From Hyphomicrobiaceae bacterium (GTDB lineage Bacteria; Pseudomonadota; Alphaproteobacteria; Rhizobiales; Hyphomicrobiaceae), in contig JAKFWF010000046.1 in assembly GCA_021730785.1 (NCBI GenBank), positions 1-64,000 on the forward strand: a stretch of 64,000 nt of DNA, in the 5' to 3' direction. Under the pieces are notes generated by a model that was not told the origin of the DNA, did not search any database, and saw nothing but the letters and a program-made list of their open reading frames with translations. Shown here one piece after another: positions 13,103 through 28,016 of this stretch (positions are counted from its first letter, which is position 1; every line of letters begins with the position of its first letter). Position numbers and translations under genes: made by a program.

Positions 13103-14272
13103 CTACCACGTCGTGCCCTTGGCACAATTCGCCTTCGCATATTCCGACGTGCCCACATCCTTCTTGAGATCGACGGGCGCGGTTGGATCATTGCCATCGA
13201 GCGCCCGCGGCTGGAACGTCGGCACCAGGCCGCGCGACAGCATCTCCTTGCGCGCTTCGTTCAAGGCGGCGGTGGTCTGCAGGTATTCGACGGCGAATAC
13301 CGGCTTCCATTCCCACAGAAGTAGGTCGAGGCGTTTCTGCGCCGCGTTGATCTCTTGGCTGGGATTGCGCTTACCGGTCTCGTGGGCGCCATGAAGCAGA
13401 TCTTCGCGCCCCAATCCATCGATCACCGCGCGGTAGGTTGGTTCACTCAGCAGATCGTCGGCGTTCTGCGGCAAGACGAAAAAACCTGGCTTCATCGCCC
13501 TCGCAGTCGCTGACAGGTCGGTCACGAACTGGATCATGTCGTCGCGGGCGGAGTCGCGGTCCGGATACTGATCGTAGATGTCGACGCGGTCGAGATAAAC
13601 GCCGTCGAAGCCCGCTTCGACGATGCGCTTCAAGTAGGCCTTGCGGCCGCGCCAGATTAGATCCTTCCAACTGTCGTGCCAGAACATCACTTTGTGGGCG
13701 CCGGGCCATTGGCAATTTTCCGGGCCCAGCCACTCGGGCGGGTCCGACTTCCATTCCTCTTTGAAATAGTAGCGGAACTGCTCCGCTTCGCCGATCGACA
13801 TATAGGCGATGACGAACCGTTTCCGGCCATCGGGGCCGGTCTTCAGGCGGGCGACTTCCAGTGGCGTGAGGGGAATTTTGCCGCCGCCGGTTGCATAGTC
13901 GATCACGAGCGCATCGGCCTTGACCTTGGCCAGCGCGTCGACGTTGCCCTTGTCCAACTGGTAATGCCACGACTTCACAGCATACAGCGGACGCATGCCA
14001 CGCTGGTGGGCAAGCCAGTGGCCGGCAGTGTCGCTCCAGGTCCAGGCGCAGAGCAAGGCGAGGACGGCCGCACCACACAGCGCAACGCGACGCCGCGCCA
14101 GTCCATCGAGCGCTGCCCACCAGGTGCCCAGCGACTTCAAGAGCGAGCCGATCGCAGTGACGATGCCAAGCACAGCCGGCCGGATCATCAGCCACGCCGC
14201 ACCGCCGATGATGTAGAAACTCTCGGCCAGCTCGATCGCCTTCGCCCGCCAGCCGCTCGGTTGATTGGCCAT
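13103..14272 (-). CDS. Membrane-anchored GH114/TM1410-like putative glycoside hydrolase
   Basis: A 389-residue paralogue of the downstream gene. It differs at the N-terminus: two hydrophobic segments (about residues 18-45 and 62-80) instead of a cleavable signal, so the catalytic domain is probably held at the membrane. The barrel repeats the family motifs in order: 'SWHYQLDKGN', 'DALVIDYATGGG', 'FVIAYMSIGEAEQFRYYF', 'GFDGVYLDRVDIYDQY', 'FFVLPQNADDLL'. Both genes face the same way with about 114 bases between them, consistent with tandem duplication and a shared role in polysaccharide turnover. Confidence 0.8.
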   Translation of the reverse strand: MANQPSGWRAKAIELAESFYIIGGAAWLMIRPAVLGIVTAIGSLLKSLGTWWAALDGLARRRVALCGAAVLALLCAWTWSDTAGHWLAHQRGMRPLYAVKSWHYQLDKGNVDALAKVKADALVIDYATGGGKIPLTPLEVARLKTGPDGRKRFVIAYMSIGEAEQFRYYFKEEWKSDPPEWLGPENCQWPGAHKVMFWHDSWKDLIWRGRKAYLKRIVEAGFDGVYLDRVDIYDQYPDRDSARDDMIQFVTDLSATARAMKPGFFVLPQNADDLLSEPTYRAVIDGLGREDLLHGAHETGKRNPSQEINAAQKRLDLLLWEWKPVFAVEYLQTTAALNEARKEMLSRGLVPTFQPRALDGNDPTAPVDLKKDVGTSEYAKANCAKGTTW

Positions 14273-14400: not shown

Positions 14401-15501
14401 ATGACCGCTGCCCCACACCCGATCCTCAATCCAGTGCGCAAATCGCATGTGGAGGGCGACTACCATGACCACGAGGTCAATCTCGCCCACCGCAACCATG
14501 GCTTCCTGCTGGAAGGCCTGCGCCACGACGTGACGCCGGCCGGCATGCACTACCTGCTGATCCATTTCGACGTGCCGTTCGTGCCAGCGCCTGACGCCTG
14601 GACGCTGTCGGTCGGCGGGCTGGTCGAGACGCCGCTGTCGCTGAAGCTCGCCGATCTTGCAGCACTGCCGCAGATCACCACCCGCGTCACGCTCGAATGC
14701 GCCGGCAACGGCCGCAGCCTCGCGCGGCCGCGCTGGCCGAGCCAGCCATGGCACGTGGAAGCCGTGGGCACGGCCGAGTGGACCGGTACGCCGTTGCGGC
14801 ACGTCCTGGGGCGCGCCGGGATCAAGCGGAACGCACAGGAGGTGGTGTTCACCGGCGCCGACCGCGGCTTCGATGCCGGGATCGAACATGACTACGGCCG
14901 CTCGCTGCCGGTCGCGATGGCGCTCAGCGACGACATTCTGCTGGTGACGGCCATGAACGGCCAGCCGCTATTGCCCCAGCATGGCGCGCCGCTGCGCCTG
15001 ATCGTGCCCGGCTGGTACGGCATGGCGAGCGTGAAGTGGCTCACCCGCATCGACGTCATCGACCACGCCTACCAGGGGTTCCAGCAGGTCGGCACCTACA
15101 TCTTCAAGCAGGTGGAGGGCGAGGCTGGCGTGCCGGTGACGACGATCCGCGTCAAGTCGCTGCTGGTGCCGCCGGGCATTCCCGACTGGTATTCACGGCG
15201 CCGCCTCGTCGAGCGCGGCACCGTTCCCCTGTTCGGCCGGGCATGGTCGGGCGCCGGCGTGCCGATCACCAAGGTCGAAGTCGGTATAGATGGTCGATTT
15301 TCGCCAGCCGAACTCGATTCCCCGGCCGGCAAATTTGCCTGGCGCGGCTGGCGCTTCGATTGGTCGGCCGAACCGGGCGAATACGAGTTGAGCTGCCGCG
15401 CGACCGACGCCAACGGCGATGTTCAGCCGCTCGGGCAGCGTTTCGACCGGGCCGGCTTCGGCAACAACACGGTGCACCGCGTGCCCGTGACGGTGCGCTG
15501 A
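14401..15501 (+). CDS. Sulfite-oxidase-like molybdopterin oxidoreductase
   Basis: A 366-residue protein of the sulfite oxidase superfamily. The molybdopterin domain holds 'TLECAGNGR' with the molybdenum-ligand Cys at position 100, then 'TGADRGFDAGIEHDYGRSLP', 'GQPLLPQHGAPLRLIVPGWY' and 'MASVKWLTRIDV'. The C-terminal Ig-like dimerisation domain follows from about residue 240 ('GVPITKVEVGIDG', 'FDWSAEPGEYELSCRATDA'). No Tat or Sec signal is visible, so it is probably cytoplasmic. Sulfite is the likely but unproven substrate. It lies close to a locus of sulfur-carrier genes (16445-21724) and may process sulfite from it, though it is not in one operon. Confidence 0.85.
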   Translation: MTAAPHPILNPVRKSHVEGDYHDHEVNLAHRNHGFLLEGLRHDVTPAGMHYLLIHFDVPFVPAPDAWTLSVGGLVETPLSLKLADLAALPQITTRVTLECAGNGRSLARPRWPSQPWHVEAVGTAEWTGTPLRHVLGRAGIKRNAQEVVFTGADRGFDAGIEHDYGRSLPVAMALSDDILLVTAMNGQPLLPQHGAPLRLIVPGWYGMASVKWLTRIDVIDHAYQGFQQVGTYIFKQVEGEAGVPVTTIRVKSLLVPPGIPDWYSRRRLVERGTVPLFGRAWSGAGVPITKVEVGIDGRFSPAELDSPAGKFAWRGWRFDWSAEPGEYELSCRATDANGDVQPLGQRFDRAGFGNNTVHRVPVTVR

Positions 15502-16444: not shown

Positions 16445-17128
16445 ATGCTGAGAGCTGACGACGTTTGGGATGCGGGCGGGCTCGGCTGCGGCGAGTTGGT
16501 GCTTGATCTGCGCGGGCGGCTGATGGCGATGCCGGGGCGCACGCTGCGGCTGATCGCCCAGGACCCCGGCGCGCCCGAGGACATCCCCTCGTGGTGCCGC
16601 ATGACCGGCCACCAGTTGCTGCAGTATGACGCGCCGTCGAACAGCTATTGGATCAAGGCGCGCGGCGAGGCGACGGGAACGTCGACAGCGGCAGATGAGG
16701 TCGAGCAGATCTATACGCCAAAGGTATTCGAGCTGGCGAAGTCGCTGGGCCCACCATCGCGGCTCGAGGCACCGGATGCGACCGCTCACGCGCGCTCGAA
16801 GCTATGCGGATCGGCGATCGAGATCGACCTCGGCCTGACGGGCGAGACCGTATCTGGCTATGCGCAACGCGTGAATGCCTGCCTGCTGGGACGCACCTCG
16901 GCCGCGGTCGTCGCCCAACAGATCATCGGCGCGACGCGCGGTGAACTGGCGGGTGTATCGCTGGCGATGCGCCACATGCTCGCCGGCACCGGTGCGCCGC
17001 CCACCGGCCGCTGGGCTGATCTCGCCGTCCTCGAACCCGTGCGCCTGCTGACTGCGCGGCACGCCTCGGCACTCCTCGTGTTCACCGCACTCGACCGCGC
17101 CCTCGCCGGCCAGCCAGCCGGTGAGTGA
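16445..17128 (+). CDS. TusA-like / IscU-like scaffold fusion protein
   Basis: A 227-residue two-domain protein. Residues 5-75 resemble TusA/SirA sulfur carriers but have 'GGLGCGELVLDLR' (Cys15-Gly) in place of the classic Cys-Pro-x-Pro, plus 'DIPSWCRMTGHQLLQ' with Cys51. Residues 90-220 resemble the NifU-N/IscU Fe-S scaffold: 'SKLCGSAIEIDL' (Cys121), 'VNACLLGRTSAAVVAQQIIG' (Cys146) and 'TARHASALLVF'. Where IscU has His-Cys in the third site this protein has His206-Ala207, so only two scaffold cysteines remain. TusA passes persulfide sulfur; IscU builds Fe-S clusters; the fusion suggests persulfide handling. GGAG lies upstream of the ATG. Convergent with the TusA-MetE gene. Confidence 0.82.
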   Translation: MLRADDVWDAGGLGCGELVLDLRGRLMAMPGRTLRLIAQDPGAPEDIPSWCRMTGHQLLQYDAPSNSYWIKARGEATGTSTAADEVEQIYTPKVFELAKSLGPPSRLEAPDATAHARSKLCGSAIEIDLGLTGETVSGYAQRVNACLLGRTSAAVVAQQIIGATRGELAGVSLAMRHMLAGTGAPPTGRWADLAVLEPVRLLTARHASALLVFTALDRALAGQPAGE

Positions 17129-17154
17129 GTGAGCGGCTTATCGCTCAGGTCCGC

Positions 17155-18681
17155 TCAATGCCCCGACCGCAGGGCATGAGCTGCCTTGGCGATGACGGCG
17201 AGCTTGGCTTCGGCGCCGTCACAGCCGCAGATCGGATTGTCGGCGAACGTGGCAAAGCCGCAGTCCGGGTGAAGCAGCACGCGGTTCGAGCCGAATGCGT
17301 TCATTGCCTGCTTGATCTTGGCGGTCACGTCGCCGAGCGGTTCGATGTCGCCGTGCTTCTGGTTGACCACGCCGACGCCGATGAACGCGTCGTCAGGCAG
17401 GCCCTTCAGGATCGCCATCTCGCCGGCGCGTGGCGTGCACATCTCCAGCAGATAGGCGCCGACCTTCATCTTGGCCAGCGTTGCGATCAGCGGCTGGTAG
17501 TTGCCAGCCAGTGCCACCGTCTCGTCCGGCGTCCAGTTGCCGCGACACACGTGCAGCGCGATCCGCTCCCGCGGGAAGCCTGCGATCACCGCGTTGATCA
17601 AGGCGGCGGCAAAGCCCAGTTCGATCTCCGGTCCCCGTGATTCCGATAGCGCGCCGCACATGAAGCTCGGCTTCGCCTTGGCACCGGTGAAGACGACGTC
17701 GGTCAGCACCGGCTCGTCGAACTGTATGAGGCCGACGCCCGCCTCGAGCAGCTCGGCGACCTCCTCGCGCAGCACCTTGACGATGTCCTCGGCCAACGCC
17801 TCTCTGGTGTCGTAGGCGCGCTCGCGGATGCACTCCATCCACATGGTGCGGGTGAGCAGGTAGGGCCCGGGCAACGCCACCTTGACCGGCAACTCCGTCA
17901 GGGTGCGGGCGAAATCCACTTCGTGAGCGACCAGCGGGCGCGAGCGTGAAATGCGCCCGAACAGCGCGGGATGGCGCACATCTGCCGCCGGCACGTCGAG
18001 TGCGCGCAGCTCCTGCTCGAACTCTTCGGGGTCATCGACCAGTGGCAGCAAATCGGTCAGCGGAATGAGCTGGCAATTGTCGAGGCGGCTCGCGACGAAA
18101 CTCGCGTAGCTGTCGCGGCGCTGCTCGCCATCGGTGATGACATCGACGCCGGCACGCAGCTGCGAAGCAACCGCGAGGCGGACCGCGTCGTCGGCGGTGT
18201 CCTGGAACTGGCGTTCGTCGAGGCGGCCGGCGATGTGCTCGTGCATGGCGCCAACCATCCAGCGCGGTCGCGGCCAGCTGCCGATCCCCATCACCGAAAG
18301 GGCTTTGATCTTCGGCGCGGTGACGGGCGTCCGCTTAGGCCGCACGGTGGGCGCGGCGGCTGTCATGGCGGCGGCTCGTGGCGCTGCACTGGATGCAGTC
18401 GCCGCTACCTTGCCTCGGTCGGCCAACAGGCCCTTGCAGACGAGGAAGCTGCGCTGCTTGTCCGCCTTGGTCCACGACACCAGCTCGTTGCGTGTCAAGC
18501 GGCACCAGGCCGGCAGGTCCTCATCGACCGAGATCTCGGTCGAGCGGATCTCCAGCAATTGCCCCTGGGCCATGGGATCGATGTGCCGGCGGATCAGCAA
18601 CAGCAGGCCATTGCCGCAATCGAGATCGCCGCCATCGAAACTGACATCAGGCTTTTGGGTATGTGCGCTCGCCGGCTGCAT
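17155..18681 (-). CDS. TusA-like / core MetE (methionine synthase II-like) fusion protein
   Basis: A 508-residue fusion. Residues 13-85 are a variant TusA domain ('GGDLDCGNGLLLLIRRHID', Cys22-Gly; 'EDLPAWCRLTRNELVSW', Cys60), close to the one in the convergent gene. A Pro/Ala-rich linker (about 95-125) leads to the catalytic domain of cobalamin-independent methionine synthase, without its N-terminal folate half. All four zinc ligands are visible: His377 and Cys379 in 'IALHVCRGNW', Glu413 in 'YLLEMCTPRAGE', Cys474 in 'LLHPDCGFATF'. This fold transfers alkyl groups to a zinc-bound thiolate. Acceptor and donor are unknown. It starts inside the end of the ABC ATPase gene (35-base overlap), with GGAG upstream, so it belongs to that operon. 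Confidence 0.88.
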   Translation of the reverse strand: MQPASAHTQKPDVSFDGGDLDCGNGLLLLIRRHIDPMAQGQLLEIRSTEISVDEDLPAWCRLTRNELVSWTKADKQRSFLVCKGLLADRGKVAATASSAAPRAAAMTAAAPTVRPKRTPVTAPKIKALSVMGIGSWPRPRWMVGAMHEHIAGRLDERQFQDTADDAVRLAVASQLRAGVDVITDGEQRRDSYASFVASRLDNCQLIPLTDLLPLVDDPEEFEQELRALDVPAADVRHPALFGRISRSRPLVAHEVDFARTLTELPVKVALPGPYLLTRTMWMECIRERAYDTREALAEDIVKVLREEVAELLEAGVGLIQFDEPVLTDVVFTGAKAKPSFMCGALSESRGPEIELGFAAALINAVIAGFPRERIALHVCRGNWTPDETVALAGNYQPLIATLAKMKVGAYLLEMCTPRAGEMAILKGLPDDAFIGVGVVNQKHGDIEPLGDVTAKIKQAMNAFGSNRVLLHPDCGFATFADNPICGCDGAEAKLAVIAKAAHALRSGH

Positions 18682-19498
18682 GGGGATCTCCGTGGCCTGA
18701 GGATGCGAGGCTGTGCTCCGACGGCGCCGTGGCATAGAGCGCGGCGAAGGCGGCTTCATCGAGCGTAGCCGTTGCAGCGTCCATGGCAAGGCGGCCGCCC
18801 GCCATGCCGATGATGCGATCGGCGAAGGTGCGCGCGTAGCCGACCTGATGCAGGCTGCAGATCACGGTGACGCGGTCGGTGCGCGCGATGTCTTTCAGCA
18901 AGGCGAGAACGCCGGCGGCGGACGAGGGATCAAGGCTCGCCACCGGCTCGTCGGCAACGATCAACCGCGGTTCCTGCGCGAGCGCACGTGCGATCGCGAC
19001 GCGCTGCTGCTGGCCACCCGACAGCGTATCGGCGCGTTGGTGCGCCTGCTCCAGCATGCCGACCCGCTCCAGGCTCTCGAATGCCTTCAGCTTGTCCGCC
19101 CGCTCGAATTGCCGCAGCACGCCGCGCCACAGGGGCACATAGCCGAGCCGGCCGGCCAGCACGTTGTCGAGGGCCGTCAACCGCCGCACCAGATTGAACT
19201 GCTGGAAAACGACCGCGATCTTGCGGCGATCCTGCACCTCGAGTGCGGAAACATCGGCGTCACCGAAGCGCACGTGCCCGGCGTCGGGGCGCGCGAGCCC
19301 GGTGATGCAGCGGAACAAGGTCGTCTTGCCGGCGCCGCTCGGCCCGAGCACGGCCGTAAACCCACCAGCCGCCAGCGTGAAGCTGACCTCATTGATCGCG
19401 GTGCGCGTGCCGAACGCCTTGGACAGGCGCTCGACGACGAGGACCGGCGACGACGTTTCCATTGCCGGCTGGAGCAGCTGCTCGGTGCCATTGCGCAT
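18647..19498 (-). CDS. PhnC-type ABC transporter ATP-binding protein
   Basis: A 283-residue ABC ATPase of the phosphonate-importer (PhnC) subfamily: Walker A '[13 protein letters not shown]', Q-loop '[20 protein letters not shown]', signature '[17 protein letters not shown]' and Walker B '[13 protein letters not shown]'. '[19 protein letters not shown]' is typical of the PhnC group. It powers import through the PhnE-like permease upstream. The ATG at 19498 lies five bases after the permease stop; an ATG at 19462 is an alternative. Its 3' end overlaps the TusA-MetE start, tying the transporter to that enzyme. Confidence 0.9.
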
Positions 19499-19503
19499 TG
19501 CTG

Positions 19504-20316
19504 TCACACCAATTTCCGGCGCAACCAGCCCGACAGCCCGTCGAGCGCGGTGACAGCGATCAGGATGATGGCGACAATCGTGAAAAGGCGAGAGAAATCC
19601 AGCAGATCCATACTGTTCTTCAATTCGAGGCCGATGCCGCCGGCGCCCACGACCCCGAGCACGGTCGACGCACGCACGTTGAACTCCCACCAGAACAGCG
19701 ACGTCGAGAGCATCAGTGGAAGCAGGTCCGGCACCAGCGCGTAGGTGATCGACTGCAAGCGCCCGGCACCGGTGGCGCGGATGGCGTCATAGGGGCCGAG
19801 ATTGGCGCTTTCGATCTGGTCGGCGAAAAACTTCGCGGCCGTGCCACTGGTGTGGAAGGCGATGCCGAGCACGCCGGCAAACGGCCCAAGACCGACGGCT
19901 GCCACGAACAGCAGGGCGAACACGAATGAATCGATGCCCCTCAGCGCATTCAGCAGCCATCGCGTGGGGCGATAGAGGCGCGGGAACGGCGTGATGTTGC
20001 GGCTGGCAAGGACGGCAAGCGGCAGCCCGATCAACACGGCCATAGTGGTGCCGACGGCTGCCATGGCGACCGTCTCCGCCGTGCGCCACAGGAACAAGGG
20101 CATTTCCTGGTAGGCCGGTGGCCAGGCCGTGGCGAGCCAGTGCCCGATTTTTGGCAGGCCGGTAGCAAGCCGGCCCAGATCGAACTGCACGAGGTAGCCG
20201 GCCACCAGATAGAAAATGGCGATGCCGGCCGCGACCAGCATCCACCGGTAGCGGGCAAACGTCCAGGCGCTTTGCTGCGTCTCGAACTCGTGCAGGGCCT
20301 TGGCTGCTGCTTTCAT
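19504..20316 (-). CDS. PhnE-type ABC transporter permease
   Basis: A 270-residue membrane protein with about five or six helices. 'FLWRTAETVAMAAVGTTMAV' opens the transmembrane domain and 'YDAIRATGAGRLQSITYALV' is the EAA-type coupling loop with the conserved Gly; 'VLGVVGAGGIGLEL' is the PhnE C-terminal signature. It forms the channel of the importer encoded by its neighbours. The start at 20316 excludes a long Arg-rich stretch in the same frame. It follows the binding-protein gene after about 106 bases and precedes the ATPase by five. Confidence 0.9.
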   Translation of the reverse strand: MKAAAKALHEFETQQSAWTFARYRWMLVAAGIAIFYLVAGYLVQFDLGRLATGLPKIGHWLATAWPPAYQEMPLFLWRTAETVAMAAVGTTMAVLIGLPLAVLASRNITPFPRLYRPTRWLLNALRGIDSFVFALLFVAAVGLGPFAGVLGIAFHTSGTAAKFFADQIESANLGPYDAIRATGAGRLQSITYALVPDLLPLMLSTSLFWWEFNVRASTVLGVVGAGGIGLELKNSMDLLDFSRLFTIVAIILIAVTALDGLSGWLRRKLV

Positions 20317-20422
20317 GAGTGCATCCAGTCCTTCACCACAGAGGCCGCGGGGGCTGATGCTGGACGCTTGGCCAGCGGTAACGCCGACAGGCGATTGATT
20401 CCGCTGGCCGAACTCACGGTGC

Positions 20423-21310
20423 TCACGTTGCCTTTGCCTTGATCTTGCCAACGGCGATGCCGGCCTTCTCGATCGAGGTGTAGGTCGCATGCGTGCCCGG
20501 GACGAAACCGGTGTAGCGGTTCGGCAGCAGCGTCTTTGCCTGTTCGGGCGTGATCGCGGTGAGGATCGCCTGCACCTTGGCCTTGAGATCGGCGGACGCG
20601 TTGGCCGGCAGTGCGATCGCGTCGTTGGGCAGCGGGTCCGACGTCCACACGATCTTGTTTGAGCCTTCCTTGACCTTGCCCGATGCGATCATGGCATTGC
20701 GGTTGCGGTCAAAGTCGGTCGCCATGTCGACCTGCCCGGCCGACACGGCGATCTCGTTGGCAGCGTGCGAGGCCCCCTCGCTATACGTCCAGAACGTCTT
20801 CGGATCGATCTTCCAGACTTCCTTGGCGTAGTAGGTCGGGATCAACCAGCCCGACGTCGAACCGATGTCGGCGAAGGCGATGGACCGGCCCTTGGTGTCG
20901 TCGGGGAACTTAGCGGCCGCAAGGTCGGGCTTGGCAATGATGATTGCGTGATAGATCGGCTTTTCGTCGTACTTGACGGTCGCGACCGCCTGGCAATTGG
21001 TAGCGTTGTTGGCGATGATGTAACCCCACGGACCCATCCAGGCCACGTCGAGCTGGCCACTGCCCATGGCCACTGCCATGCCGGCCCAATCGGTCGTGAC
21101 GGCGAGTTCGAATTCGCCGCCAAGCTCCTTGGCGAGATGAGAAAAAAGTGGGCCGAACGACTTTTTCGTATCTTCCGGGTTCGGCAACAGCGGGCCGACG
21201 CCAAATTTCCACTTCTTCGTTTGTGCGATGGCCGGTCGAAACAGGGATGTGGAAGCTGCCGCAACGCCGGCGACCGTGGTGGTGATAAGCGTGCGTCGAT
21301 CAAGACTCAT
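20423..21310 (-). CDS. PhnD-type periplasmic substrate-binding protein
   Basis: A 295-residue binding protein with a signal peptide containing twin arginine ('SLDRRTLITTT') and a cleavage-like 'AIAQ'. The mature part has the PhnD fold motifs: 'WKFGVGPLLPNPEDTKKSF', 'ELAVTTDWAGMAVAMGSGQ', 'DVAWMGPWGYIIA', 'IAFADIGSTSGWLIPTYYAK' and 'TDPLPNDAIALPA'-like 'TSDPLPNDAIALPA'. The family includes phosphonate, phosphite, and proposed selenate binders, so the ligand cannot be assigned. Its partners here are sulfur-carrier genes, not C-P lyase or phosphonatase genes. Second gene of the operon, 52 bases after dsrE. Confidence 0.88.
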   Translation of the reverse strand: MSLDRRTLITTTVAGVAAASTSLFRPAIAQTKKWKFGVGPLLPNPEDTKKSFGPLFSHLAKELGGEFELAVTTDWAGMAVAMGSGQLDVAWMGPWGYIIANNATNCQAVATVKYDEKPIYHAIIIAKPDLAAAKFPDDTKGRSIAFADIGSTSGWLIPTYYAKEVWKIDPKTFWTYSEGASHAANEIAVSAGQVDMATDFDRNRNAMIASGKVKEGSNKIVWTSDPLPNDAIALPANASADLKAKVQAILTAITPEQAKTLLPNRYTGFVPGTHATYTSIEKAGIAVGKIKAKAT

Positions 21311-21361
21311 GGAAACTCCGTCCGAGTTGACGTGATGTTAGAACTGGGGTGGGGGGAGAAC

Positions 21362-21724
21362 TCAGTAGCTGATGCTGGGCGCACCGTCCGACATGAACTC
21401 GACGAGCTTGGCGCCGCCGACGATCACGGCACCGGGCACGAGGTTGTTCTCGTCCAGCGCGCGCTTCTTGAAGCAGGGCGAGCACACGTAGATCTTGCCG
21501 CCGGCCTTGGCAAAATTGGTCATCAGTTCGGTCAGGGCTGCAAAGCCTGACTCATGGACGCTGTCGGCGACGCCCTTTTGCGATAACCGCGTGCCCTCGG
21601 TCGAAAGGAACACTACCGTGTCCTTGTCGGACGCCACGGCCGCATTGGCGACCACGAACGCCACGGTCGCCTTGTCCGGATCGTCCGTCGCGCATGTGAG
21701 ACTGACGACATATTTTCCTGGCAT
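21362..21724 (-). CDS. DsrE family sulfur-carrier protein
   Basis: A 120-residue cytoplasmic protein with the DsrE/DsrF-like fold: 'KYVVSLTCATDDPDKATVAF' start, 'DTVVFLSTEGTRL', then 'KIYVCSPCFKKRALDENNLV' with Cys81 and Cys84 in a C-x-x-C arrangement, and 'VGGAKLVEFMSDGAPSISY' end. Cys81 is in the position of the sulfur-binding cysteine. DsrE proteins exchange persulfide sulfur with TusA, so the pairing with TusA-type domains in the same operon is functionally coherent. First gene of the dsrE-phnD-phnE-phnC-tusA/metE operon, with GGAGAG ahead of the ATG and a promoter-like sequence further upstream. Confidence 0.88.
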   Translation of the reverse strand: MPGKYVVSLTCATDDPDKATVAFVVANAAVASDKDTVVFLSTEGTRLSQKGVADSVHESGFAALTELMTNFAKAGGKIYVCSPCFKKRALDENNLVPGAVIVGGAKLVEFMSDGAPSISY

Positions 21725-21756
21725 TTAGGTACTCTCCGTACAGCTGGATGCGACGT

Positions 21757-21785
21757 TCAATGTTCTCAATTCACTACGTTGTCAA
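21757..21785 (-). promoter_or_regulatory. Candidate sigma70 promoter of the dsrE operon
   Basis: Read on the minus strand, a perfect TTGACA (21785-21780) is followed after 17 bases by CATTGA (21762-21757), about 33 bases before the dsrE ATG. The -35 is perfect, the -10 weak, which would fit an activator-dependent promoter. Sequence pattern only. Confidence 0.45.
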
Positions 21786-21972: not shown

Positions 21973-22668
21973 TCAAACCTCGAGCCACTCGCGACGAACC
22001 GCTTCGCTGGCCTTGAGGTCGGCAGGCGTGCCTTGAAACACCATGCGGCCGTGCCCCATGACGTAGACGCGGTTCGAGATCTGCAGGGCGATGGCGAGCT
22101 TCTGTTCGACCAGCAGGATAGCAACGCCGCGCCGTGCGATCTCGCGGATCAGTTCGCCGACCTGCTTGACGATCAGCGGGGCTAAGCCCTCGGTCGGCTC
22201 GTCGATCATGATCAGCTCGGGATCGCCCATCAGGGTCCGGCACATGGTCAGCATCTGCTTCTCGCCGCCCGACAGCACGCCTGCCGCCGTATCCACACGC
22301 CGCGCGAGGTTCGGGAACATCGTGAGCATGTCATCCGCGCGCCAGCGGCCATCGAGGCCGGCCTTCTTCTGGCCGAGCGCCAGGTTCTGCCGCACGGTCA
22401 GGCTCGGGAAGATATCGCGGTGCTCCGGCACGTAGCCGAGGCCGAGGCGGGCGATGCGATAGCTCGGCCAGCCGGCAATGTCGGTGCCCTTGAACCGCAC
22501 GTGACCGACGGCGCGCACTTCGCCCATGATCGCCTTGACCGTGGTCGAGCGGCCGACGCCGTTGCGCCCGAGCAGGGAGACCACCTCGCCGGCACCCACA
22601 TCGAGGTCGACGCCCTGCAGGATGTGGCTCTTGCCATAGTAGGCGTTGAGGGCACGCACTTCCAGCAT
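21973..22668 (-). CDS. livF: Branched-chain amino acid ABC transporter ATP-binding protein LivF
   Basis: A 231-residue LivF-type ATPase: 'NAYYGKSHILQGVDLDV', 'YVPEHRDIFPSLTVRQNL', signature 'LSGGEKQMLTMCRTLMGDP', Walker B 'LIMIDEPTEGLAP' and 'ILLVEQKLAIALQIS' are all typical. The Walker A reads 'GRNGVGRSTT': the usual invariant Lys is Arg (codon CGC), a change I believe occurs in some LivF proteins but which should weaken nucleotide binding. Last gene of the Liv operon; its ATG shares one base with the livG stop. Confidence 0.93.
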   Translation of the reverse strand: MLEVRALNAYYGKSHILQGVDLDVGAGEVVSLLGRNGVGRSTTVKAIMGEVRAVGHVRFKGTDIAGWPSYRIARLGLGYVPEHRDIFPSLTVRQNLALGQKKAGLDGRWRADDMLTMFPNLARRVDTAAGVLSGGEKQMLTMCRTLMGDPELIMIDEPTEGLAPLIVKQVGELIREIARRGVAILLVEQKLAIALQISNRVYVMGHGRMVFQGTPADLKASEAVRREWLEV

Positions 22669-23420
22669 CAGGGCACCTCTTCGCCGAGGTAGGCGTCGCG
22701 CACCTGCCGGCTGGCGCGGATCTCAGCCGGCGGGCCGGTGGCGATGATCTCGCCGTAAACCAGCACCGAGATGCGATCAGCGAGGCCGAACACCACGCTC
22801 ATGTCGTGCTCCACGATCAGCAGCGTGCGGCCTTCGCTGATCCGGCGGATGAGTTCGACCGCGCGCTCGGTCTCGGCCTTGCTCATGCCGGCGGTCGGCT
22901 CGTCGAGCAGGATGACGTTGGCACCGCCCGCCATGGTGATGCCGATTTCAAGCGCGCGCTGCTCGGCGTAGGTGAGGACGCCGGCCTGGACGTCGCGCCG
23001 GCTCTGCAGGTTGATCGCGCTCAGCACTTCCTCCGTGCGTTCAGTGACCGCGCGGTTGCCGCCCACACTGCGCCAGAAGGCATAGCGCTCGCCCTTGGCC
23101 CACAGCACGGCACAGCGCACGTTCTCGAACACGCTCATGGCGGGAAAGATGTTCGTCACCTGGAACGATCGCGACAGGCCGCGGCGGTTGATCTCGAACG
23201 GCGGCTTGCCGCTGACGGCTTCGCCGTTAAGACGGATTTCGCCCGCGCTGAGCGGGATCAAACCGCTGATCAGGTTGAACAACGTCGACTTGCCGGCGCC
23301 GTTCGGGCCGATGATGGCGTGGCGCTCGGCGCGCGGGATCGCGAGGTCGACCCCGCGGATGATCTCGGCCGGGCCGAAGTTCTTCTTCAGGCCGATCAGT
23401 TCGAGGGCGGGAGCGGTCAT
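22668..23420 (-). CDS. livG: Branched-chain amino acid ABC transporter ATP-binding protein LivG
   Basis: A 250-residue LivG-type ATPase with Walker A 'GPNGAGKSTLFNLISG', 'LSRSFQVTNIFPAMSVFEN', signature-region 'LTYAEQRALEIGITMA' and Walker B 'VILLDEPTAGMSKAE'. The signature has the LivG form (L-x-Y-A/G-E/Q-Q-R). It pairs with LivF to drive uptake through LivHM. The frame is open far upstream on the same strand, but the ATG at 23420 overlaps the livM stop (ATGA), which fixes the start. Confidence 0.93.
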   Translation of the reverse strand: MTAPALELIGLKKNFGPAEIIRGVDLAIPRAERHAIIGPNGAGKSTLFNLISGLIPLSAGEIRLNGEAVSGKPPFEINRRGLSRSFQVTNIFPAMSVFENVRCAVLWAKGERYAFWRSVGGNRAVTERTEEVLSAINLQSRRDVQAGVLTYAEQRALEIGITMAGGANVILLDEPTAGMSKAETERAVELIRRISEGRTLLIVEHDMSVVFGLADRISVLVYGEIIATGPPAEIRASRQVRDAYLGEEVP

Positions 23421-24712
23421 GCCACGCCCCCGTGCGTGAGGCTCATCGCGCGCACGTCGTCCCATGCAGCCGCAATGCGCCGGCCGACCAGTCGCGCGAG
23501 CAACCCACCGACGCCGAGCATTGCACCTGCGACCAGCCAGGGCGGCACACTGCGCGCGTCGAACCCGATGCCGAGAAGCTTCATGGTGGTGCCTTGCGCG
23601 CCATGCACGCCGATCTGCGTCGCCATCTCGATGACCAGGATGGCGCCCGCCGCGGCCAGGGCGACCGGGACGACCATCATGCCATAGCCGGGCATCAGAC
23701 GGGACAGTGCGCCCGCCCGCCACACCGGCCGGTGCATCATGATCAGCCCCGAAATGCCGCCCGGCGCATACATGACGGTCGCGATGAACATCAGGCCGAA
23801 ATAGAGCTGCCAGACTTCCGTCACGTCGCTCAGCATGTTCTGCAGAAACGTGACGAGGATCGCGCCCAGGATCGGCCCGAAGAAATGACCAACGCCGCCG
23901 ATGAAGGTCGCGAGCAGGACGTTGCCAGACTGGCTGGCGCCGAACAGCGCCGCATTCGCCAGCTCGAAGTTGATCGCCGTCAGCCCGCCAGCGATGCCGG
24001 CGAAAAAGCCCGACAGCACGAATGCAATGTAGCGCACCCGATGCGGATCGTAGCCGACGAACTGGGCCCGCTCCGGGTTGTCGCGCACGGCGTTGCACAT
24101 GCGCCCGAACGGCGTGCGGGTCAGCGCATACATCAGCGCGATACACAGTAGGCACCACGCCGCGATCAGGTAGTAGACCTGGACCTGCGCCCCGAAATTC
24201 CAGTCGAACAGACGCAGCAGCTTGGTGCGGTTGGTCGACACGCCCTCTTCGCCGCCGAAGAATGAACGCAGGATCAGCGAACTGGAGCCGACGAGTTCGG
24301 CGAGGCCCAGCGAGATCATGGCGAAGGCGGTGCCGCTGCGCTTGGTCGATACCCAGCCAAACAGCAGGGCAAAGCCAAGCCCGGCCGCGCCACCGACCAG
24401 CGGCATGGCGGCGACCGGCACCGGCAGACGCGCCTCGATCACCGCATTCATGGCATGCACGGTGAAATAGGCGCCTAGGCCGAAGTAGACCGCATGCCCG
24501 AACGACAGCATGCCGGTCTGGCCGAGCAGCATGTTGTAGGACAGCGCAAAGATGATGGCGATGCCCATCAGGCTCATCATGGTCAGCGACGTGCCCGAGC
24601 GAAACAGCAGCGGCGCCAGGGCAAAGGCTGCCGCGAGCAGGGTCCAGATCAACCAGCCACCGCGGCTGGCAGCGACCTTCATGCCGGGTAGGACGGAGGC
24701 TGTCTCGCTCAT
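23417..24712 (-). CDS. livM: Branched-chain amino acid ABC transporter permease LivM
   Basis: A 431-residue permease with about ten helices. 'YNMLLGQTGMLSFGHAVYFG' is the LivM hallmark, and 'GRMCNAVRDNPERAQFVGYD' is the conserved coupling loop; 'RYIAFVLSGFFAGIAGGLTA' follows. The C-terminal ~70 residues beyond the usual end add extra hydrophobic segments ('RPVWRAGALSRLMPGYGMMV'), making it longer than most LivM proteins. The ATG at 24712 overlaps the livH stop by four bases. Confidence 0.92.
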   Translation of the reverse strand: MSETASVLPGMKVAASRGGWLIWTLLAAAFALAPLLFRSGTSLTMMSLMGIAIIFALSYNMLLGQTGMLSFGHAVYFGLGAYFTVHAMNAVIEARLPVPVAAMPLVGGAAGLGFALLFGWVSTKRSGTAFAMISLGLAELVGSSSLILRSFFGGEEGVSTNRTKLLRLFDWNFGAQVQVYYLIAAWCLLCIALMYALTRTPFGRMCNAVRDNPERAQFVGYDPHRVRYIAFVLSGFFAGIAGGLTAINFELANAALFGASQSGNVLLATFIGGVGHFFGPILGAILVTFLQNMLSDVTEVWQLYFGLMFIATVMYAPGGISGLIMMHRPVWRAGALSRLMPGYGMMVVPVALAAAGAILVIEMATQIGVHGAQGTTMKLLGIGFDARSVPPWLVAGAMLGVGGLLARLVGRRIAAAWDDVRAMSLTHGGVA

Positions 24713-25677
24713 GACTCGCGTGTCCCGAACAGACCCGTCGGCTTGAAGATCAGAATGATCATCAGCAGCAGGTAGGGCAGGATGGGCGCCACTTGTGCGA
24801 TCGTCACGCGCCACAGGTCTTCCAGGATCGTCTTCGGCGCCGGCGTGAAGCCCGAGCCGGCGAAGATGTCGGCGAGCGACAAGTTGACCGACACGGCGAA
24901 CGTCTGCAGCAGGCCGATCAGCAGGGATGCGATCAGCGCGCCCTGCAGCGACCCGAGCCCGCCGACCACAACGACCACGAACAGAATGGGTCCAAGCAGC
25001 GCCGCCATACTCGCCTGCGTGACGAGGGCCGGCCCCGCGATCACACCGGCAATACCTGCCAGCGCCGAGCCGACGCCGAATACCGACATGAAGACCAGTG
25101 GCACGTTATGGCCGAGATGGGCGACCATTTTCGGATGCGTCAAGGATGCCTGCACGATCATCCCGACGCGCGTGCGCTTCAGCAGCCAGAACAGTGCGAC
25201 AAAGATCGAAATCGACACCGCAAGCATGAACAGCTTGTAGGCTGGATAATTGGTCGAAAAGATCGTGAAGGCTGGAAAATCGAGCGCGCGCGGCACGCGG
25301 AAGTCGACCGGCGACTTACCCCAGATGATCTGGATCACTTCCTCGATGACGAAGGCTAAGCCGAACGTGAACAGCAGTTCGGCGACGTGGCCATGGGCGT
25401 GCACGGTGCGCAGCCCGAAGCGTTCGACGGCGGCACCTGCCAGCCCGACGACGAGCGGCGCCAAGATCAGCGCCGGCCAAAAGCCCGCCCACTTGGCGAT
25501 CTGGAAGCCGATGAAAGCGCCCATCATGTAAAAGCTGGCGTGGGCGAAATTCAGCACACCCATCATCGAGAAGATCAGCGTGAGGCCACTCGCCATCAAA
25601 AACAGCAGGAGCCCAAAGAGAACCCCGTTCAGCGTCGAGATGATGATCAGCTCAGCCAAGTTGGCGGTTCCCCGCAA
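24709..25677 (-). CDS. livH: Branched-chain amino acid ABC transporter permease LivH
   Basis: A 322-residue permease with eight or so helices: 'LTLIFSMMGVLNFAHASFYM' is the LivH signature and 'VGMIVQASLTHPKMVAHLGH' the coupling loop; 'GGLGSLQGALIASLLIGLLQ' follows. The frame begins with TTG at 25677 and I see no good ribosome site before it; the next Met (residue 28) is inside the first helix. The start lies about 80 bases from a REP palindrome and the GIY-YIG gene that separate livH from the binding-protein gene, so the original 5' end may have been altered. Confidence 0.9.
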   Translation of the reverse strand: MRGTANLAELIIISTLNGVLFGLLLFLMASGLTLIFSMMGVLNFAHASFYMMGAFIGFQIAKWAGFWPALILAPLVVGLAGAAVERFGLRTVHAHGHVAELLFTFGLAFVIEEVIQIIWGKSPVDFRVPRALDFPAFTIFSTNYPAYKLFMLAVSISIFVALFWLLKRTRVGMIVQASLTHPKMVAHLGHNVPLVFMSVFGVGSALAGIAGVIAGPALVTQASMAALLGPILFVVVVVGGLGSLQGALIASLLIGLLQTFAVSVNLSLADIFAGSGFTPAPKTILEDLWRVTIAQVAPILPYLLLMIILIFKPTGLFGTRES

Positions 25678-25755
25678 ATTGAATTCGAAGGGCGATCCGG
25701 TTTTGCGGCATGCATCCTGCCACCGGCATAGGGTGCCGCATGCGGATCGCTAGGT

Positions 25756-25774
25756 CCTCGGGCCAAGCCCGAGG
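25756..25774. repeat. REP-like palindrome 1 (CCTCGGG-N5-CCCGAGG)
   Basis: Perfect seven-base arms with loop CCAAG, inside a wider near-palindrome (GGTCCTCGGG ... CCCGAGGATGACC). It lies upstream of the GIY-YIG gene, between it and the livH start. The same core recurs at 25875 and 26271. Confidence 0.75.
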
Positions 25775-25874
25775 ATGACCCCGGTTATGTGGTTCATGGA
25801 GCCAGCAACGTGCCGATTTTGAAAAATTGCAGCCTGGACGACCTGGCCACAATCGATCGACCCCAACGGTGTCA

Positions 25875-25895
25875 CCCTCGGGCTTGTCCCGAGGG
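25875..25895. repeat. REP-like palindrome 2 (CCCTCGGG-N5-CCCGAGGG)
   Basis: Perfect eight-base arms with loop CTTGT, 45 bases before the GIY-YIG start, in the inverted sense relative to palindromes 1 and 3 (loop CTTGT versus CCAAG/ACAAG). Such GGGCTTGTCCCGAGG-type REPs are common dispersed elements in alphaproteobacteria. Confidence 0.75.
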
Positions 25896-25939
25896 CCAAT
25901 GGCGCGGCACACTGGACACTCGACGTTGGAGTTCCCCTC

Positions 25940-26293
25940 GTGCAATCTTTCTCGGCCTACTTTCTCGCGAGCCAGCCACGCGGCACCCTGTACGTCGGTG
26001 TCACGAACAGTCTTGTGCAACGGGTCGCCGATCACCGCGCCGGACGTGGCTCGACCTTCACCCAGAAATTCAAAGTCCACCGCCTCGTTTGGTACGAGGA
26101 GTTCGATAGCGTGACCGACGCAATTCAAAGGGAAAAATCTCTCAAGCGTTACTTGAGGGATTGGAAGATCACTCTGATCGAACGTGACACCCCGCACTGG
26201 ATCGACCTCTACGCTGCATTGCCTGGTGTGCGGCCGTTGCCCAAAGACTGGGCCCCGGTGGATGATCGTTCCTCGGGACAAGCCCGAGGTTGA
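25940..26293 (+). CDS. GIY-YIG family nuclease-like protein
   Basis: A 117-residue stand-alone GIY-YIG domain: 'GTLYVGVTNSLVQRVADHRA' carries the G-x-x-Y-V-G form of the motif with the conserved Arg (usually R-x-x-x-H), 'VWYEEFDSVTDAIQREKSLK' holds the metal-binding Glu and 'RYLRDWKITLIE' ends the core. Relatives resemble excision and homing endonucleases but are uncharacterised. Its last codons lie in a REP palindrome. It is on the opposite strand within the Liv transport operon, between the binding-protein gene and livH, which points to insertion as a unit with the flanking REPs. Confidence 0.9.
   Translation: MQSFSAYFLASQPRGTLYVGVTNSLVQRVADHRAGRGSTFTQKFKVHRLVWYEEFDSVTDAIQREKSLKRYLRDWKITLIERDTPHWIDLYAALPGVRPLPKDWAPVDDRSSGQARG
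26271..26289. repeat. REP-like palindrome 3 (CCTCGGG-N5-CCCGAGG)
   Basis: Perfect seven-base arms with loop ACAAG, overlapping the 3' end of the GIY-YIG gene (it encodes the terminal Ser-Ser-Gly-Gln-Ala-Arg-Gly). With palindromes 1 and 2 it brackets the gene on both sides. Confidence 0.75.
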
Positions 26294-26323
26294 TATTGTT
26301 TCACGTTGCGCAGATGCAGCCCC

Positions 26324-27568
26324 CTACTTCGGCCGCTCCATTTTGCAGGTGGTGGGGATCACGGTGTCCTTGGCGTCGAGGGCCGCGATCTGGCGCCAGC
26401 CCCAGCCGGTGCCTTCCTCGTCGAAGGGCTCGGCGGCCGTGCGCTCGCCGAACGACACCAGATACATCGGCTGGAAGAACTGGTGGTCGTCCTTGCGCAT
26501 GAAGCCCTCGCCGCCGTTCATGACCTCGAACTTCATGTCCTCGAGGGCGAGGCCGATCTTGATCGGGTCCGTCGACTTGGCCTTGTCGACTGCAACCGCC
26601 AGCATGCGCATCTGGTTCATGGCGCGCGGGTAGAGGATCGACATCTTGTATTTGTCGCGGAACGCCGTTTCGTTGGCCTTGGTGCCGGCGTGGTCCTTGT
26701 TGGGCGAGCCCTCGCGGATCTCGTAAACGCGGTGGTTGAGACCGGTCTGCTTGACTGACGTCGGCCCGCCGGTGCCGCCCGCGTAGTACGTGTACCAGTC
26801 GACCTGCAGGCCGGCGTCGGCGGACGCCTTCAGCAGCAGCGCGAAATCCTGGCTCCAGTTGCCGGTGATGACCGAATCTGCCCCCGAGGCCTTGATCTTG
26901 GCGATGTAGGGGGCGAAGTCGGTGACCTTGAGCAAGGGGTGCAGTTCGTCGCCGACGATCGCGATGTCGGGCCGCTTGGCTTTCAGCATCGTAACGGCGG
27001 TTGCCCGCACAGCCTGGCCGAACGAATAGTCCTGGTTGATCAGGTACACTTTCTTGATGGCGGCCTTGCCCTTCATGTAGTTGGTGAGGGCCTCCATCTT
27101 GATGTCGGAGTTGGCGTCCCAGCGGAAGTGCGAGAACGTGCACTTCGAATTGGTCAGCACCGGATCGACGGCTGCGTAGTTGAGGTACATGACCTCCTTG
27201 CCTGGGTTGCGCTCGTTGTACTTCGCGACCCACTCGGACAAGGCGGCTGCCACGGACGAGCCGTTGCCCTGGGTGATGATGCGCGCCCCCGCATCTACCG
27301 CCTTCTGCACCTGGATCAGGCTTTCCTGCGGGTTGGTCTTGTTGTCGTAGGGCAGGATCTCGAACTTTTTCCCGGCCGCCCCGCCCTTGGCGTTCAACTC
27401 GTCGGCCATGAACTGGAAGGTCTTGAGGCCCACTTCGCCGACGGTGGCACCAGGACCCGACAGCGGATCGATATAGGCGATTTTGATGGTGTCCTGGGCC
27501 AGGGCTGGGCCGAAGCCGAACACGAAGGCCGCCGCTGTGAGCAGGGCAGCCACGAAGCGCGCTTTCAT
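26324..27568 (-). CDS. Branched-chain amino acid-type ABC transporter substrate-binding protein
   Basis: A 414-residue periplasmic type I binding protein. The signal peptide ends near 'GPALAQ', followed by 'IKIAYIDPLSGPGATVGEVG', 'ILPYDNKTNPQESLIQVQKA' and 'ITQGNGSSVAAALSEWVAKY', the LivJ/LivK-like fold. The ligand may be a branched-chain amino acid, amide or other small compound. GGAGG sits just before the ATG at 27568; upstream in-frame codons are not part of it. First gene of the liv operon, separated from livH by the 640-base GIY-YIG/REP insertion. Confidence 0.9.
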   Translation of the reverse strand: MKARFVAALLTAAAFVFGFGPALAQDTIKIAYIDPLSGPGATVGEVGLKTFQFMADELNAKGGAAGKKFEILPYDNKTNPQESLIQVQKAVDAGARIITQGNGSSVAAALSEWVAKYNERNPGKEVMYLNYAAVDPVLTNSKCTFSHFRWDANSDIKMEALTNYMKGKAAIKKVYLINQDYSFGQAVRATAVTMLKAKRPDIAIVGDELHPLLKVTDFAPYIAKIKASGADSVITGNWSQDFALLLKASADAGLQVDWYTYYAGGTGGPTSVKQTGLNHRVYEIREGSPNKDHAGTKANETAFRDKYKMSILYPRAMNQMRMLAVAVDKAKSTDPIKIGLALEDMKFEVMNGGEGFMRKDDHQFFQPMYLVSFGERTAAEPFDEEGTGWGWRQIAALDAKDTVIPTTCKMERPK

Positions 27569-28016
27569 ATGTCCTCCGTACGTTTCCCGATGGCTGCCGG
27601 ATTTCAGTTTCCGGTCTTGCGCACATGTCTGCTCTGGCACGTGGCCGCAGGATGGCCAATGTCGAACCGCGGATGTGTACTGCGAAAGACTATCGCAATC
27701 GCCCCGCAAGTCCAGTGCCACGGCAGTGCTCCAATTGGCATGGAATTGCCAATGCGGCATGCTGCGAGACAAGTACTGCCGCCTGCCTGCGTACACCCGG
27801 GAAGGCCCGCCGTGCCGCCGTGCTTGCCTCGCGTTCCGTGCCGAAGGTACAAGTCACGGCGTGGCAGAGTGTTGGCAATTGGCAGGTGGTGTCGTTGGCC
27901 AGAAAGAGTGCGACCCGATAAATCCAAGTGGGCATCGCGATCTCCGTCGACGCAATCCGACTGCACCCCTGTAGTCCAAGACGATCCTTGCGGCCCGCTC
28001 AGGGCGGGCTTGATTT
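27569..28016. other. Regulatory region between the Liv binding-protein gene and the HigBA-like module
   Basis: Divergent intergenic region of about 450 bases. Visible structure: a palindrome at 27734-27753, a direct TTGGCA repeat near 27872-27883 and a GC-rich inverted repeat near 27989-28009 just before the toxin promoter. No gene recognised. Confidence 0.45.
27734..27753. promoter_or_regulatory. Palindrome ATTGGCA-N6-TGCCAAT
   Basis: Perfect seven-base arms upstream of the Liv binding-protein gene; further TTGGCA half-sites occur near 27872-27883. The pattern looks like an operator for a dimeric regulator, but no regulator is identified. Confidence 0.4.

Follow-up and report, generated by a model that had tools for sequence, protein, structure and literature searches.

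According to a 2026 review, prokaryotes have no known high-affinity system specific for selenium transport, and it is unresolved what donates selenium to SelD in vivo (PMC13188914). A dedicated selenium importer was likewise described as unknown in a 2022 review (PMC9312934), so that any candidate for this role is of interest. In this work we studied a gene set found in a 64,000-nt stretch (hereafter the window) of the genome of a Hyphomicrobiaceae bacterium (the host), in which genes for a DsrE-family protein, a PhnDEC-type ATP-binding cassette (ABC) importer and a fusion of a TusA domain with the core of the methionine synthase MetE form an operon-like unit. We propose that the set is a module that supplies selenium in bacteria that use SelD; judging from gene content, gene neighbourhoods and residue conservation, we put the probability of this reading, including the mechanism proposed below, at about 0.6.

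The closest described counterpart of the thiol-carrier part is YedF (TIGR03527), a SirA/TusA-DsrE fusion that is found with YedE and is linked to SelD (PMC5322559). The set resembles it in combining TusA-type and DsrE-type domains and in co-occurring with SelD. However, YedF is a single chain with a CPxP motif, whereas the set has TusA (CG-x-x) and DsrE (CSPC) on two chains, contains a TusA-MetE fusion in addition and includes no YedE among its conserved genes. Selenium starvation of Methanococcus maripaludis induces TusA/TusD together with a PhnU-type permease and the methyl-selenide methyltransferase SdmABC (PMC11097638). SdmABC demethylates selenium by means of a distant MetE/UROD-barrel relative, but its SdmA is a corrinoid protein and its acceptor is coenzyme M, while the set has no conserved corrinoid protein and its residues fit homocysteine. 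The core methionine synthases MesA-MesD share with TusA-MetE a MetE barrel that has the zinc and homocysteine residues and lacks the folate half (PMC7857596); the paper describing them mentions no TusA fusion, and the set differs from them by its TusA domain, its DsrE and TusA partners and its distribution among selenium users. As for the importer, its binding protein shares the fold and most pocket residues with HtxB and HtxB-like proteins (PMC6629693) and differs from them by its DsrE and TusA-MetE operon partners. Like the TIGR04553 binding protein, a member of which is encoded near selD in the host, it belongs to the PhnD superfamily. No description of the TusA/DsrE/MetE set was found in the open-licence full-text literature searched; the first-pass annotation of this DNA, made from the sequence alone, likewise named no characterised system of this composition.

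When 84,980 species were scanned with an alignment of four sequences, 80 loci with near full-length orthologues of TusA-MetE (57-74% identity) were found, representing at least 80 species, so that the recurrence proposed at first pass as a check was indeed observed, and across several phyla. The carriers belong to Alpha- and Betaproteobacteria, Binatota, Planctomycetes, Myxococcales and others, and culturable carriers include Paracoccus versutus, Xanthobacter tagetidis and Duganella species. The fusion is rare at the class level (two further carriers among 384 genomes, E <= 1e-40) and absent from the sampled relatives of the same family, where 29 of 60 genomes gave matches that were MetE-like at about 25-34% identity, with one 51% fragment. 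Clustering of neighbouring open reading frames and gene maps defined a core shared by nearly all loci: a standalone TusA (CGEL-type motif), DsrE (CSPC) and TusA-MetE. Wherever DsrE was found in an orthologous locus, its motif is CSPC or CAPC. These three genes are the conserved core of a real recurring system.

The slot between DsrE and TusA-MetE holds PhnDEC in about 24 species, which come from two classes, with phnC and tusA-metE overlapping or abutting, and another gene pair, M180-P520, in about 24 species. Both modules are present in Xanthobacter tagetidis and Afipia sp. 1NLS2, and most remaining carriers have the core only. The importer, which the first-pass annotation had counted as part of the set, is therefore a recurrent member but not an obligatory one, being dispensed with in well over half of the carriers, which have the other module or the core alone. 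M180 is a membrane protein of four-helix-like appearance that has conserved cysteines and for which no family or solved relative was found; a resemblance to MerC noticed by eye was not confirmed. P520, about 520 aa long, is periplasmic and membrane-anchored, with a weak S-layer likeness (PF07752/DUF1608) and a poor AlphaFold model (pLDDT 60). A broad scan of flanking genes revealed no extra conserved partner except LysR, TctC and, in Binatota, MetX/MetY.

The carriers of the set are, with very few exceptions, users of selenium. SelA was found in 46 of 50 foreign carrier genomes and the other four all have SelU, while SelD scored above its cut-off in 49 of 51 carriers, the host included. In the class as a whole, full-length SelA is present in 53 of 372 genomes (14%) and SelD in 73 of 372 (20%); in Burkholderiaceae, SelA is present in 76 of 245. 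The Fisher p-values (2e-28 for SelD, 1e-14 for SelA in Alphaproteobacteria and 7e-8 for SelA in Burkholderiaceae) overstate the certainty, since the carrier genomes are related and not independent. The association is seen in several phyla, and both carriers from the unbiased class sample (G336 and G339) have SelA and SelD.

The gene neighbourhoods point in the same direction. Paracoccus ferrooxidans, in which selA and trxB follow the set and selB is nearby, gave the first hint of selenium; the order in Paracoccus is cysteine desulfurase, TusA, DsrE, M180, P520, TusA-MetE, selA, trxB. In a Bradyrhizobiaceae metagenome-assembled genome (L043), the genes for TusA, DsrE, M180, P520 and TusA-MetE are followed by selD and then by tRNA-Sec, selB, selA, fdhE and a formate dehydrogenase subunit gene. 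Also located there, between selD and tRNA-Sec/selB (L043 11054-12718), are GcvH-like and lipoate-ligase-like genes that recall the lipoate-binding proteins of sulfur oxidation. Co-occurrence with SelA, SelU and SelD, together with the sel genes next to the set, argues for a selenium module and not for a general sulfur relay; on this genomic evidence a selenium role of the set appears very probable. The first-pass annotation had a sulfur or selenium compound routed through TusA: selenium, listed there as one possibility, is favoured by these data, and a general sulfur system is not. In such a sulfur system, the carriers would import a small sulfur compound (thiosulfate or methylated sulfur) and process it by persulfide relay and alkyl transfer, and their use of selenium would be a coincidence. 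Sulfur is the classical cargo of TusA and DsrE, and a gene for a SorA/SoxC-like sulfite oxidase (molybdopterin; below the SorA, SoxC and SorT cut-offs) lies near the set at 14401-15501 of the plus strand. Yet SelA or SelU is found in 50 of 50 foreign carriers, sel genes adjoin the set in L043 and Paracoccus, and the surroundings of the 80 loci show no conserved gene of sulfur oxidation, which makes this explanation highly unlikely.

The TusA-MetE fusion of the host (17155-18681, minus strand; 508 aa; PF01717, 1.4e-25) is composed of an N-terminal TusA domain with Cys22 and Cys60, a flexible linker at about residues 86-124 and a MetE barrel. The zinc ligands H377, C379, E413 and C474 are invariant in 80 of 80 orthologues, and so are S135, E186 and D322, assigned to the homocysteine site by alignment to T. 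maritima MetE and family knowledge; Cys22 and Cys60 are retained in 79 of 80. Columns with at least 95% identity make up 57% of the TusA domain, 41% of the barrel and 3% of the linker. The AlphaFold model (pLDDT 80.6) matches the core MetE structure 3rpd (Z 36.3, rmsd 2.5, 323 residues) and full-length MetE structures (Z about 34), followed by the methanogen methyltransferase 4ay7 (Z 21.8). The MetE zinc site and the homocysteine-type pocket are intact, and the invariant zinc ligands bear out the combination of a TusA/DsrE thiol-carrier relay with a zinc alkyl-transfer domain that had been noticed at first pass. The N-terminal folate-binding half of MetE is replaced by the TusA domain and linker, which suggests that a TusA-borne cargo replaces methyl-folate as the partner of the zinc site.

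An intact barrel with zinc and homocysteine residues, and the genes for MetX and MetY located divergently upstream of the set in Binatota, would also fit an alternative methionine synthase. We regard this as very improbable, because the host has MetH, TusA-MetE lacks the folate half and falls far below the cut-off of every methionine-synthase NCBIfam equivalog, and the tie to selenium genes would be left unexplained. As the only methionine synthase of the host, TusA-MetE was rejected on account of the same MetH. Since MetX and MetY make homocysteine, their position, seen in this one phylum only, is consistent with homocysteine as the acceptor.

It may also be supposed that the set carries selenium without demethylating it: the zinc site would bind selenolate or perselenide, or would serve to methylate surplus selenium that is to be exported, with selenite as the cargo of the importer. 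Such a carrier would show the same association with SelA, SelD and SelU, the invariant zinc ligands suit it equally, and no conserved methyl donor or acceptor partner was found around the loci beyond MetX/MetY in one phylum. However, S135, E186 and D322, invariant in all 80 orthologues, would be needless for mere selenium binding, and we consider this version unlikely. Removal of a methyl group by the MetE domain is itself put forward tentatively, with the odds somewhat against it.

The importer of the host consists of a PhnD-superfamily substrate-binding protein of the 'HtxB-like' type (20423-21310; PF12974, 2.4e-49; TIGR01098 above cut-off), a PhnE-type permease (about 19504-20316, with the start assumed at ATG 20316; TIGR01097, 260 bits, cut-off 217) and a PhnC-type ATPase (18647-19498; TIGR02315, 281 bits, cut-off 266), all encoded on the minus strand. 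HtxB is the closest solved relative of the binding protein (8e-73). In HtxB numbering the pocket is formed by W52, P71, Y97, S128, T129, S130, H158, F176, R178 and D206; most residues of HtxB are kept (W52, Y97, T129, S130, R178 and D206), and the changes N128S, F158H and M176F fit the 'HtxB-like' subfamily (N128S, F158H, M176F/Y) of PMC6629693. The score for TIGR03431, the PhnD of C-P lyase systems, is 156.6 against a cut-off of 261.1, and the HtxB-type cap W52 with R178/D206 is found instead of a phosphonate pocket; no C-P lyase was seen in the examined part of the window, no genome-wide search for it having been made. TIGR04553 (putative selenate) is also missed (75.8 against 250), and identity with the host's own TIGR04553 member is 19%.

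These features could indicate that PhnDEC is a hypophosphite or phosphite importer inserted between dsrE and tusA-metE and unrelated to the core. Besides the relationship with HtxB and the retained pocket residues, Ciceribacter selenitireducens encodes an 80% identical binding protein with phnEC next to a phytanoyl-CoA (PhyH)-type dioxygenase gene and without the TusA core (L130 8839-12662), as might be expected for a hypophosphite operon. That locus is on a plasmid of a selenite reducer and is flanked by IS21. On the other hand, the same gene order with overlapping or abutting phnC and tusA-metE is kept in about 24 species of two classes, and no htxA/ptxD-like oxidising gene occurs in the conserved neighbourhood. 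The ligand of the HtxB-like subfamily was predicted, as a prediction only, to be phosphite (PMC6629693). In our view, pyramidal selenite would be similar to it in shape. Transport of hypophosphite or phosphite by an importer unrelated to the core seems rather unlikely, and for a selenium compound as the cargo we see roughly even chances.

For the selenium supply module we propose the following mechanism. The HtxB-like ABC importer, or elsewhere the M180/P520 module, would bring in a small selenium oxyanion, e.g., selenite or methylseleninate. After reduction by thiols, a TusA cysteine would hold the selenium as S-Se or S-Se-CH3, and the MetE domain, where needed, would move the methyl group at its zinc from TusA-held selenium to homocysteine. 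TusA and DsrE (CSPC), which we regard as probable selenium carriers, would then relay the bare selenium as perselenide to SelD, and SelD would feed SelA or SelU or, in a host negative for both, another use.

Several observations weigh against this reading, in addition to the relatedness of the carriers and the phosphite prediction and Ciceribacter locus described above. SelA is common in Paracoccus anyway (90 of 111 genomes), which makes a test within this genus uninformative, and in just two of the examined lineages were sel genes found next to the set. The conserved neighbours include neither a corrinoid protein nor another methyl carrier. The host itself lacks SelA and SelU, and the evidence as a whole comes from sequences.

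The host genome (4.34 Mb, 99% complete) is an 'orphan SelD' genome, as SelD is present and SelA and SelU are absent; selenocysteine biosynthesis and 2-selenouridine were rejected as its selenium uses on the same grounds. Its SelD is fused to an oxidoreductase domain (TIGR03169 and TIGR00476 both above cut-off, motif CGGCGAK), and the genes close to it include those for a PhnC-like ATPase and for a PhnD-type binding protein that exceeds the cut-off of TIGR04553 ('putative selenate ABC transporter'). Radical SAM proteins and a glycosyltransferase of the TIGR04282 type are also encoded in this region (contig 8, 78000-96000; L126 1-18001); in Roseomonas (L131), similar genes of both kinds are found with an HtxB-like importer. 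Selenium-dependent molybdenum hydroxylases are the form of a third, SelD-dependent use of selenium. A relative of the SufU-like domain encoded next to the set in the host is located among molybdenum-hydroxylase genes in Microvirga, which, together with the existence of this third use (PMC2432076), gives a hint for the host. We treat a molybdenum-hydroxylase-type use of selenium there as a lead only.

The window is located on contig 11 and has 65% G+C. The unit on its minus strand begins with dsrE (21362-21724; 120 aa, motif YVCSPCFKKR; PF02635, 7.7e-15), followed by phnD, phnE, phnC and tusA-metE with operon-like spacing: the gap between phnE and phnC is 5 bp, and phnC overlaps tusA-metE by 35 bp. 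The order DsrE, PhnD, PhnE, PhnC, TusA-MetE is repeated in about 24 other species, so that the arrangement is not a product of chance. A convergent gene on the plus strand (16445-17128) encodes a TusA-SufU-like fusion of 227 aa (TusA, 8e-9; TIGR01994, 46 bits), and its stop is separated by 26 bp from that of tusA-metE. Both the Pfam and NCBIfam profiles and the spacing agree with the first-pass description of five tightly spaced genes and a convergent fusion. Of the 'TusA-IscU-like' label of that fusion, the TusA part held; the rest is SufU-like, far below the TIGR01994 cut-off of 92.5, with Cys1 and Cys2 kept and the third scaffold cysteine replaced in comparison with Bacillus subtilis SufU, so that the three cysteines of a SufU/IscU scaffold are not all present. 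The third cysteine is also replaced in alphaproteobacterial relatives of this domain, and a SufU-like protein without it is encoded among xanthine-dehydrogenase/XdhC genes in Microvirga ossetica (L133 4013-4474). The fusion was found in none of the other orthologous loci.

In both TusA domains of the locus CPxP is replaced by CG-x-x (CGEL and CGNG). They reach 38.3 and 28.9 bits with Pfam TusA (cut-off 28.6) and only 43.5 and 26.2 with the TusA equivalog NF001423 (cut-off 78). The only other TusA match in the host genome is a canonical TusA encoded elsewhere, so the convergent fusion represents the standalone-type (CGEL) TusA of the host. Directly upstream of dsrE lies a branched-chain-amino-acid/urea-type ABC transporter operon (21973-27796, minus strand; its UrtE-like ATPase is below cut-off), and at 13103-14272 of the minus strand a putative glycoside hydrolase gene of the GH114/TM1410 family exceeds the NCBIfam cut-off.

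In its strongest form, which we offer as a speculative possibility, the set would be the first dedicated bacterial selenium acquisition system, with an ABC transporter that takes up selenite or a methylated selenium oxyanion, TusA-MetE as a cobalamin-independent methyl-selenium demethylase and delivery of perselenide through TusA/DsrE to SelD. With about half a dozen genes, found in selenium users of several phyla, it is a testable candidate for both the selenium importer and the SelD donor. If the MetE domain demethylates selenium, a well-known fold would be put to a new use, and bacteria would have a counterpart, independent of cobalamin, of the methylated-selenium route of methanogens.

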